Source of the DNA: Halococcus agarilyticus
GTDB lineage: Archaea; Halobacteriota; Halobacteria; Halobacteriales; Halococcaceae
DNA: 42,948 bases
Direction of reading: 5' to 3'
Assembly (NCBI RefSeq): GCF_000334895.1
Contig: NZ_BAFM01000023.1
Location: 1 to 42,948, forward strand
The notes beneath the pieces were generated by a model, which did no database searches, had not been told where the DNA came from, and saw only the letters and a list, made by a program, of their open reading frames with translations. Made by a program: the position numbers and the translations under genes. The number at the start of each line of letters is the position of its first letter. Position 1 is the first letter of the stretch. This document shows positions 4,764-36,880 of the stretch, one piece after another.

Positions 4764-5373
4764 GAGAGTTAGTGAGGTTGAGAAAGCAATTAACCTTTGT
4801 GCCATCCGTCTTTAGCTAAGCCTCGATCGTTGGCTGAGTGACGGTAGCGAGCCGCTCTTGGAGAATCGGTCGCTGTTGGTGAATCTTCTGAGCATCTTCG
4901 ATCAGCCGTTCCAACAGCGGTGGTGGAGAGTAGCCGAGGTAATCACCGAGTTCGTGAAGGATGAGCTGGGCGTGCGACCGGAAGGTCGCAGCCCAGCGTT
5001 CCGTCGGAAAGACGCACTCGTCATCAGCTTCCTCTGTCACTACCTTTAGCAACGCTCGACTCACCACCAACGACAGCAACGCTGCGTACAGCAAAACCTC
5101 CACCACGTGCTTCTTGCTTGTATCGAACTCGTCCAGTTCGTACTGCGTCTTCAGCTCCCGAAACAGTACCTCTACTTCCCACCTGCACCGATACAGTGTC
5201 GCTATATCCGCCGGTAGAAACGACTCTCGCGACAAGTTCGTGATGTACAACTGGTAGTCGTCGGCGTCCTCGACGTGGACGCCGACGACGCGGAATCGCT
5301 TCGTATCCCACGACTGCGTGCCCGCGTACTCACGCCGCTGGAACGAGACTTCTACTTCGACATCGATATATAT

Positions 5374-6394
5374 TCAAAGACAGAGATATTGAAACACTCC
5401 TGGTGGACTGATCGATTCGAGTGCTGTCCAGACTGCTGATCGGATCTCGGCACAACTGTCGAAGTAGCGGTTACCGAGGATGAGTTTGAGTCGCCGCCAG
5501 TACTCTTCGGTTGGATTCAGGTCCGGCGATCCAGTCGGGAAATACACCAGCTCGATCGGTTCATCGGCGGCGAAGTTCTTCACCACCTTTGCGGTGAAGT
5601 ACGTCGCCTGGTCCAACAGCACCACCAACTTCTCGCCGAATTCTGTCTGAAGATGCTCCAGAAAGCGGATCGTCACCTCGCCGATGAACGATCCGCCGCA
5701 CTCCAGCACCGTCGTCTCCCCGTACTCAGTGACTGCTCCCAGAAGGTTCACGCCCTCGCGAGAGGCCGACACGCCCACGGTCGGCCTCTCGCCAACCGGA
5801 TACCATGCTGCATAGAGGTCCGCTCCAACCGCTTTCCGTGTCTGGTCGATCGTGACGACCGTCGCGTCCTCGTCACGGTGTCCTACTTTTTTTCGACTAT
5901 CTCCTCGAACTCCTCACGTTCGTCTTCGTCGGCAGAGGCCGGTTCCGGCCGGGGTCTCTTCGGTGAGACCCGGCCTTGTGCATGAGCCGACAAACGTGAC
6001 GGCGTGAGAAAGCGACGTCAAACGTCTCGATGAGGTAGTGCTGGGCGAGAACGCTACTCCACGCTGGGTCGTCGTATCCGGCTTCTTCAGGTGGCTCATG
6101 GAGTACAGCGGTGAACTGCTCGAACTGGTCGTCGCTGAGTTCGGATGGACGGCCGGGACGAGATTTATCGTAGAGCGCGGCGTCGAAGCCGCGCTCTTCG
6201 AAGCGATTCAACCAGTTGTAGACGGTCTGTCGGTCCCATCCGTATTTGTCTTCAATATCGGCCGGAGAGAGTCCTTCCAGATATTCGCGAGCAGCGGTGA
6301 GCCGTTTGATCGCCTTTGGGTCGGTCTCGTCCACGAGTTGCTCACGGACTCGACGTTTCGTGAGGTCGGGAATCTTGTTCCCTTCCTTGGCCAT
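5374..6394 (-). pseudogene. IS630-family transposase, copy A, inactivated by a 1-nt deletion
   Basis: The N-terminal helix-turn-helix part starts at the ATG 6394 (MAKEGNKIPDLTKRRV) and contains DKYGWDRQTVYNWLNRFEER. At the run of G near 5976 one base is missing relative to copy B (three G instead of four), which throws MHKAG into a wrong frame. The catalytic half is intact in the other frame: TIDQTRKAV, VVLLDQATYF, then NPTEEYWRRLK. The intrinsic -1 frameshifting site of the family is preserved at 5886-5892. The copy cannot make full-length enzyme. Confidence 0.88.
5851..5892 (-). promoter_or_regulatory. Programmed -1 frameshift signal in IS630 copy A
   Basis: On the minus strand the heptamer A AAA AAG (5892-5886) is followed directly by TAG. 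Eight nt after the heptamer comes a perfect 8-bp stem, CGTGACGA (5877-5870) with TCGTCACG (5858-5851), enclosing an 11-nt loop. The arrangement is the same as in copy B. Confidence 0.75.
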
Positions 6395-7298
6395 ATCGGT
6401 GGTTGTTTCGCCGGCGTATCAAAACTTCCGGCACACGGTATACTTCCGCTGAAGATCCCCCACGATGTCGTAGACGTGCTCACCTTCGAGAGGAATGGCG
6501 CGACCGCGCCATTCCCTCAACTCTGCCGTTATCACTGGATTTGAACTGTCTTCAGCTGACTCATGAAGTAGCTGTCGTTCTCATCGATCAGTGCAAACCG
6601 GCGGAACTTGAAGTACGCTCGATCGAACAGTACCAGCCATCCTTTCAGCCACGAGCCTGTATCGAATGCGGTGCTGTCGTGGGCTTTTTCATCGGTGACG
6701 CTGAACCTCTCGATCATCTGGTCGGTAGCGTTATGGAGCAGGTGGAGCCGTGCTCCAGCCTGCTCCTCTTTGCGACCTTCGTACTCCTCAGCAAGGAACT
6801 GATGCAACCGCAGGACCGTCACATCAGCGATGATCACATCTCTGAATCGGCTGAATTCTTCACTGACCGTGTGTGGGACAGCGACCTCGTCGAGCGCAGT
6901 CTCGACGAGGTCGCAGAGATACTCCGCGAACAGCGACGTGAGTCGCTGGTAGAAACCGCCAGGTGAAAGCGTCTCGTCGGCTGTAGAGTTGTAAGCACGT
7001 CTGAAGCCGGCGAGTGTTCGGCTCTCGCCTGCGGCGAAGCCGAACACGAACGCCCAGACCAACGCTGGGATCTGGAGCTTCCCATCTCGCTCGACCACGC
7101 CGAGTTCCTCGGCGTGCTCTTCGAGCATCGTCGATGGAAAGAGCGTAGTGAGCCGCTGCATAATTCGAGGTGAGGAGGCATCGTCGTACACAGACACCGC
7201 CTCCTCACTCCTGCCGAAAAGATGCCTCGATAAGCCGCCGCTGTCACGCGATTTTTCGCTTAGCTAAAGACGGATGACCTTTGTGCATTCGTATTCGG

Positions 7299-35204: not shown

Positions 35205-35276
35205 GGATAAATAGAGGCGTTCAGAGAATATACCCTAAGCCGGAAGTCTTGACACAGTAGCGAAGCAGATACTGGT

Positions 35277-36301
35277 ATGGGCAAGAAGAGAACCAAGATC
35301 CCCGACCTGACGAAGGGTCGAGTCCGCGAGCAACTCGCGGACGAGACCGATCCGAAGGCGATCAAACGTCTCACCGCCGCTCGCGAATATCTGGAAGGGC
35401 TCTCTGGCGGTGAGATCGAAACGAAGTACAGGTGGGATCGCCAGACCGTCTACAACTGGCTCGATCGCTTCGAAGAGCGCGGCTTCGACGCCGCGCTCTA
35501 CGATGATTCCCGTCCCGGACGCCCCTCAGAACTCAGCAACCAACAGTTCGAGCAATTCACCGCTGTCCTCCACGAATTGCCTGAAGAAACCGGATACGAT
35601 GCCCCAGCAGCATGGAGTACAGCTCTCGCCCAACACTATCTCATCGAAGCATTCGACATCGGCTTCTCCCGCCGCCACGTCCGCCGATTGATGCACAAGA
35701 CCGGGGTCTCACCGAAGAGACCCCGGCCAGAACCAGCGTCTGCCGACGAAGAGGAGCGTGAAGAGTTCGAAGAGACAGTCGAAAAAAAGTAGGCTACCGT
35801 GACGAGGACGCGACAGTCGTCACGATTGATCAGACCCGCAAAGCGGTTGGTGCAGACCTCTACGCGGCGTGGTTCCCAGTTGGCGAGAGGCCGACCGTGG
35901 GCGTGTCGGTCTCTCGCGAAGGCGTAAATTTCCTTGGAGCAGTGACGGAGTACGGTGAAACGACGGTGCTGGAGTGTGGCGGATCGTTCACCGGCAAGGT
36001 GACGATCCGCTTTTTGGAGCACCTCCAAACGAAGTTCGGTGAGAAGCTGGTTGTGTTGTTGGATCAGGCGACGTACTTCACCGCCAGAGCGGTGAAGGAC
36101 TTCGTAGCCGAGGAACCGATCGAGTTGGTGTACTTCCCGACGGGATCACCAGACCTGAATCCGACTGAAGAATACTGGCGGCGGCTCAAACTCGTTCTCG
36201 GAAACCGCTACTTCGGTACTTGTGCTAAGATTCGATCAGCAGTTTGGTCAGCACTCGAATCGATCAGTCCACCAGGAGTGTATCAATATCTCTGTCTTTG
36301 A
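35277..36301 (+). CDS. IS630-family transposase made by -1 ribosomal frameshifting
   Basis: Frame 0 (35277-35792) gives a 171-residue DNA-binding protein with helix-turn-helix blocks (TDPKAIKRLTAAREY; KYRWDRQTVYNWLDRF) ending EETVEKK-stop. A slip of -1 at A AAA AAG (35783-35789) continues as VGYRDEDATVVTIDQTRKAV into the catalytic half, giving a 341-residue fusion, the usual IS630 length. Catalytic residues are Asp in TIDQ, Asp in VLLDQATYF and Glu in NPTEEYWRRLK. The short product alone could act as a repressor of transposition, as in other frameshifted insertion sequences; that is inference. It carries one extra Ala codon relative to copy A. Confidence 0.85.
35783..35824 (+). promoter_or_regulatory. 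Programmed -1 frameshift signal in IS630 copy B
   Basis: Slippery heptamer A AAA AAG at 35783-35789 in frame 0, TAG stop at 35790-35792, an 8-nt spacer, then a perfect 8-bp stem CGTGACGA (35798-35805) / TCGTCACG (35817-35824) with an 11-nt loop. All parts are conserved in copy A. Confidence 0.8.
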
Positions 36302-36330
36302 GTATATGAGCACTTCCGTGGATCCCTATA

Positions 36331-36880
36331 GCAATATAATCTCACATCTCAATTCGACACCGCCTACGGGGAGAACCATGGGTGAATATATTGACGCTAA
36401 GTCAGCGGTGAAGCAAGTATCACGCCGGAGTGCCCCTCTGTCAGCAATACGTCTCGAAATGGTCCGCTACACCACCCACATTCGTACATTGATCAACGAC
36501 CAGGGGACGACCCACCAGCACAACGCGATCAACAGGGGGAGTTCACTGAGCACTCAGCTGTCAGGCGAACTGAGACAAAAGGTGATAGAATCAATTGGAG
36601 AAAATTGTCCATCGATGGTTCGACTAATCATTCCTCTGAATAATTGTAGTGGAGGGCAGTCATCATACGAAACACGGGGAATCGTGATTCCAAAGCCAGG
36701 TATGGAATGGAAGGTACCATGGTACAGTAACCGATGCCACACCCAGCGACATCGACTTCGAAAAGTTCCATTATAAATGTTTGCTGTAGTGATTTTCAGT
36801 AGGGCAAAGACGCCATACCCATTTGGAAAACAGACTCGTCTCAGACAAATCTACGCTCTTGTGAATCACATTGTTGGTGA
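36331..36880. other. Unassigned AT-richer region with one doubtful ORF
   Basis: A plus-strand frame from the ATG at 36379 (MGEYIDAKSAVKQVSRRS) runs to 36776 (about 132 residues). It has little acidic character and no motif I know, and it may not be a gene. At its left edge, 36341-36364 is identical (inverted) to 20755-20778 upstream of the importer permease gene. GTACCATGGTAC near 36713 is a 12-bp palindrome. Confidence 0.3.

Follow-up and report, generated by a model that had tools for sequence, protein, structure and literature searches.

Recoding is already known for IS630 transposases, and some relatives of the element described here are annotated as fused coding sequences in RefSeq, while proven recoding in archaea is confined to very few genes (PMC8211752). 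At the -1 sites of Escherichia coli dnaX and of the IS3 family, the heptamer A_AAA_AAG is followed by a downstream stem, as it is in the element studied here, but E. coli differs from the host of that element in having a single tRNA-Lys (PMC5009743). The transposase of a Roseiflexus IS630 element is produced by RNA polymerase slippage, although there the slip occurs on T5C5 with a nascent RNA hairpin upstream (PMC5009743). In Deinococcus, ISDra3 and related IS630 elements have a two-frame transposase joined at a run of A's in the same linker as in the haloarchaeal elements; they differ in being bacterial, with nine A's and a +1 shift in ISDra3 and eight A's and a -1 shift in the element of strain QL22. 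Transcript slippage has been proposed for IS elements of D. radiodurans with runs of 8 to 9 A's, and IS elements of Sulfolobus solfataricus with 9 A's have been listed (Baranov 2005, PMC1088944).

The window analyzed here, a contig of 42,948 nt from Halococcus agarilyticus (NZ_BAFM01000023.1), contains an IS630 element, copy B, whose transposase is divided between two frames where seven A's stand in a row (A7). We consider it very probable (about 85%) that this transposase is expressed by programmed recoding at the A7 run, be it by the ribosome or by RNA polymerase. The split, its conservation throughout the class and the spread of A7 copies can be read directly from the sequences compared; production of the fusion, its minority share and a role for the first ORF by itself are what we infer.

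Results

The element and its slip site comprise the following features.

35233 to 36302, plus strand: copy B of the IS630 element, approximately 1070 bp, delimited by comparing its flanks with those of 10 relatives in other genomes
35277 to 35792, plus strand: ORFA, 171 aa, the half of the transposase with the DNA-binding HTH domains, with matches to NF033545 and PF13565/PF13592/PF13518
35789 to 36301, plus strand: ORFB, the DDE_3 catalytic half in the -1 frame, 170 aa, with NF033545 and DDE_3 matches
35782 to 35788, plus strand: A7 run, which together with G35789 includes the heptamer A_AAA_AAG (35783-35789)
35798 to 35824, plus strand: 8-bp stem with an 11-nt loop, arms CGTGACGA (35798-35805) and TCGTCACG (35817-35824) in perfect pairing

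Copy B inserted cleanly and shares its ends with its relatives. The flank comparison with the 10 relatives places TA target duplications at 35231-35232 and 36303-36304, and imperfect terminal inverted repeats lie at approximately 35228-35256 and 36279-36307 (inverted repeat I1, 29 nt, 72%). Insertion at TA, duplication of the TA and short terminal inverted repeats, all traits of the IS630 family, are found in copy B and in the 10 relatives. The IS630 profile NF033545 (length 299, cut-off 100 bits) is covered end to end, with ORFA matching positions 2-135 (106 bits) and ORFB positions 140-298 (125 bits). PF13358 scores 92 bits, and a DD34E triad was counted by eye in ORFB (D14, D92 and E127, with 34 residues between the last two). 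These matches assign the copy B transposase to the IS630 family, and a sequence-only reading of the window had correctly anticipated that the -1 product would be a DDE transposase of normal IS630 length.

The 3' end of ORFA reads GTC GAA AAA AAG TAG, with the TAG directly after the slip site, and a spacer of 8 nt (35790-35797) separates the heptamer from the stem. The coordinates confirm the layout given in the sequence-only reading, in which copy B is split at A AAA AAG before TAG, with an 8-nt spacer, a perfect 8-bp stem and an 11-nt loop. RNAfold of 35780-35850 recovers the CGTGACGA/TCGTCACG stem, and this segment is not unusually stable compared to dinucleotide shuffles (z of -0.55). No clear Shine-Dalgarno-like stimulator was seen by eye upstream of the copy B junction. 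On both strands of the window there are just two A7 runs, and these are the junctions of copy B and of a second element of the same type. The two other IS630 copies of the window are as follows.

5374 to 6394, minus strand: copy A, same IS630 type, 85% identical to copy B at the DNA level, with ORFA broken and ORFB intact
34170 (approximate) to 35204, minus strand: third, decayed IS630 element of another subgroup, with the junction GAGTTCAAAAAAGTGG

Copy A was said to keep the same arrangement while otherwise being dead, and this holds: the A7 run (5887-5893), the TAG and the stem (arms at 5877-5870 and 5858-5851) are kept, while a 1-nt deletion upstream of the run breaks ORFA, which terminates at 5897. 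Copy A is flanked by pieces of a DDE_Tnp_1 (IS4-like) transposase on the minus strand (4816-5250 and 6532-7197), as if it had inserted into such an element. The junction of the third element, GAGTTCAAAAAAGTGG, has six A's (A6), and its intact relatives have A7. The left terminal repeat of this element, CTATAGGGATC, is found at 36320-36331, beyond copy B, which is located in the 5' leader of the third element between the left terminal repeat and the start codon. Copy B is thus flanked by parts of another element and therefore arrived at this site as an element.

Relatives were sought in a sample of 391 genomes from across the class, in the family's own 18 genomes and in a collection of contigs at species level. 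Since the query was the DDE half only, the sample is unbiased for or against a split. The survey yielded 165 loci with 126 distinct measurable junctions and reached subgroups down to approximately 38 to 50% protein identity. A run of at least six A's was present at the same linker in all 126 junctions, so conservation in two copies, as originally claimed, is true of both but understates a pattern that is class-wide. In 96 of the 126, the run is A7 and the DDE half follows in the -1 frame; these junctions belong to several subgroups and many genera, and in most of them both halves are otherwise open. The run stands in phase 0 (mostly NNC AAA AAA AGN) in 87 of these 96. Seven junctions combine A7 in phase 0 with a +1 offset (L036-L038, L061, L044, L012, which is copy A, and L015). 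Among them, L036-L038 and L061 form a well-supported sister clade of copy B's own subgroup (the window's subgroup) in the tree, L044 falls elsewhere, and L012 and L015 are decayed. In this sister clade (L036, L037, L038, L061 and L172), the DDE half lies behind A7 in the +1 (or -2) frame. Phase (0 and 1) and offset (-1 and +1) vary while A7 stays, meaning that the run is conserved independently of phase. Spans annotated in RefSeq correspond to two-frame lengths, with 1022, 1001 and 1001 nt for -1 elements and 1021 nt for a Halorubrum element of the +1 clade, which is likewise annotated as fused.

The remaining run lengths are rarer. About 12 junctions have A6 with a +1 offset, and several of these are decayed. 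Within the window's subgroup, A6 in place of A7 occurs in L006, L032, L034, L057, L203 and L209, some of which are otherwise intact; the intact ones may have lost activity recently or may rely on another kind of slip. Only 6 of the 126 junctions are in frame, two of them A8 copies and four others. Relatives with a single uninterrupted ORF were named in the sequence-only reading as what would refute a programmed split, and their scarcity upholds that split. Single-frame copies include L102 (genome G035) and L106 (G388), by way of A8, and L086 (G150), by way of an extra A downstream, and each of the three shares its genome with ordinary A7 copies. When another 392 genomes were drawn, the window's subgroup gained just one member, the decayed L211 with 81% identity, and the viral contigs searched contained no close relative.

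Many A7 elements are present in multiple copies. Genome G054 carries six plus three identical A7/-1 copies with different flanks, and all nine copies found there are of this type. Identical A7/-1 copies with different flanks were also found in G224 (four), G150 (five) and G034, G046 and G257 (at least three each). The occurrence of identical A7 copies at different sites in complete genomes means that A7 elements transpose, and, with no in-frame copy found among the nine in G054, they seem to do so without the need for an in-frame helper. We therefore regard the split as most probably the normal, working state of these transposases.

In the window's subgroup, the exact heptamer phase and the immediate TAG are kept by most A7/-1 relatives, the TAG being lost in L030, and GAA AAA AAG sets an X_XXY_YYZ heptamer in register with the frame of ORFA. 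The stem is retained in all A7/-1 members of the subgroup except one, and L033 maintains the pairing through G-U. Structure downstream of the junction, measured against synonymous shuffles, had a mean z of -1.3 in the window's subgroup (n = 9) and -1.2 in a small A7/phase-0 group (n = 6), while in the two large phase-0 groups, it did not exceed codon expectation (z of 0.0, n = 32, and +1.0, n = 24). The signal is confined to the first two groups, and the idea that a conserved structure after the junction stimulates slippage in general was rejected.

The tolerance for A7 in ordinary genes was assessed by synonymous shuffles of 1.6 Mb from four haloarchaeal chromosomes (L213-L292). Across the 424,316 codons of these four haloarchaea, avoidance of A7 was not significant, with 8 runs seen against 10.6 expected. 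Strong avoidance was seen for G7 (18 runs in coding sequence, with 83.5 expected) and C7 (8, with 71 expected) but not for A7 or T7.

Discussion

The mechanism that we propose for copy B is one in which most translation products would end with ORFA and consist of the DNA-binding part alone. A minority product would result from slippage on the A7 run of the linker, joining ORFA to ORFB in a 341-aa DDE transposase (..VEKK-VGYRD..), and with the fusion scarce, transposition would be held low. Weighing against recoding are the A6 runs in several members of the window's subgroup and the few in-frame relatives, namely, the A8 copies L102 and L106 and L086 with its downstream insertion. In many bacteria, avoidance of A runs becomes evident at a length of 9, and A7 is shorter (PMC1088944). 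Since A7 is not significantly avoided in haloarchaeal genes, slippage on it must be weak by either route, and weak slippage would suit a transposase. The codon statistics thus give neither machine a strong advantage.

The choice between the two machines is a closer one. Classical -1 ribosomal frameshifting, in which two Lys-tRNAs slip jointly on A_AAA_AAG with the aid of the stem 8 nt downstream, is a serious possibility that we would nonetheless place short of even odds. Copy B, like most A7/-1 members of the subgroup, has the exact heptamer phase and the immediate TAG that such a site should have. Elsewhere, a -1 frameshift has been proposed in the tail genes of haloarchaeal viruses, and one has been reported in a gene of Sulfolobus (PMC5009743, PMC8211752). 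The stem argues in the same direction, being kept throughout the A7/-1 members of the subgroup with the single exception mentioned above. Only 0.2% of synonymous-codon shuffles produced 8 perfect Watson-Crick base pairs in the zone of 5 to 13 nt (P of approximately 0.002, with the stem already known at the time of the test), and the stem of copy B is for this reason probably more than codon chance in its lineage. It is possible that it acts as a subgroup-specific stimulator. On the other hand, the stem codons of the window's subgroup are not conserved above the rest of the ORF (24 of 143 windows were equally low), which counts against a ribosomal role.

Outside the window's subgroup, the ribosomal route fares worse. 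The phase-0 run makes tandem X_XXY_YYZ slippage impossible in 87 of the 96 A7/-1 relatives, and most of these 87 show no stem. The textbook bacterial layout recognized in the sequence-only reading consequently describes the window's small subgroup but not the general mechanism, and a haloarchaeal survey for heptamer and stem, as suggested there, recovers both in that subgroup while the large groups have neither the heptamer phase nor the stem. The sister clade requires the opposite shift on A7, +1/-2; IS elements are known to make +1 shifts by transcript slippage but are not known to make them on the ribosome (PMC5009743). The host encodes both tRNA-Lys CUU and UUU, and the presence of the former, unlike in E. 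coli, also speaks against the ribosome. In Thermus, where dnaX uses polymerase slippage in place of the A_AAA_AAG site of E. coli, the possession of two such tRNAs has been suggested as a possible reason, since A_AAA_AAG may then be a poor site for the ribosome (PMC5009743).

RNA polymerase slippage, which would turn A7 into A8 in the mRNA, is no less likely than a shift on the ribosome because of the mostly stemless phase-0 runs, the sister clade with its opposite shift, the tRNA-Lys(CUU) of the host and the A8 and A9 runs of the bacterial elements. For the group as a whole, we give polymerase slippage about an even chance and ribosomal -1 slippage a chance somewhat below even, more favored inside the window's subgroup, with some other mechanism having a small chance. 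A bolder reading, which we hold less likely than not, is that programmed slippage of the RNA polymerase on A7 serves the whole class as its way to make transposase; the ribosomal-style heptamer and stem would then be a secondary gain of the window's subgroup at the same run. Detection of the VEKK-VGYRD junction peptide would prove the fusion but cannot separate the mechanisms, since A7-to-A8 slippage in the transcript and -1 slippage on the ribosome give the same protein.

It is improbable that the two ORFs function without recoding, either as two cooperating separate proteins or with transposase supplied in trans by in-frame copies (A8 or L086) and phase variation through replication slippage. 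In-frame copies do stand beside A7 copies in three genomes (L102 in G035, L106 in G388 and L086 in G150), which speaks for such a supply, but the nine of nine A7/-1 copies in G054 leave no such source among the copies found, and A7 is the strong majority length. An IS630 transposase can also be one protein, as in the single-ORF relatives of Klebsiella and Salmonella. Least probable is an unprogrammed split, that is, a homopolymer indel common by descent or a sequencing error in dead elements: homopolymer runs are prone to indels, copy A is dead and L032, L057 and the third IS630 of the window are decayed A6 relatives, but the shared indel or pseudogene reading was rejected by the class-wide survey, with its A7/-1 split in 96 distinct and mostly open elements of many genera, and by the multicopy families of identical sequence with different flanks in complete genomes.

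With programmed recoding as the favored reading, the split is a way to produce little transposase and not a broken gene. The A7 elements are common in culturable haloarchaea and offer short, defined slip sites with natural variants in run phase and shift direction; the haloarchaeal IS630 variants thereby constitute a ready test set for whether the archaeal ribosome or RNA polymerase slips on A7. A search of the literature, limited to open-license papers, found no description of an A7 run that is kept across the class while its phase and shift direction change.

Among named elements, the IS630-like ISNpe3 (Natrinema) and ISNma7 (Natrialba) have the linker A7 as here, and the 1001 nt that RefSeq gives for them is the length expected of a -1 fusion. 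They are approximately 41% identical to copy B in the DDE half and differ from it in having the run in phase 0 (CTC AAA AAA AGC) without an immediate stop, in a stemless subgroup. The closest match is an IS630 element on a Natrinema zhouii plasmid (NZ_CP084885; WP_226778856), whose DDE half is 90% identical and which has the same GAA AAA AAG TAG and stem. It is presented as one fused coding sequence of 1022 nt in the existing annotation and shows no essential difference from copy B.
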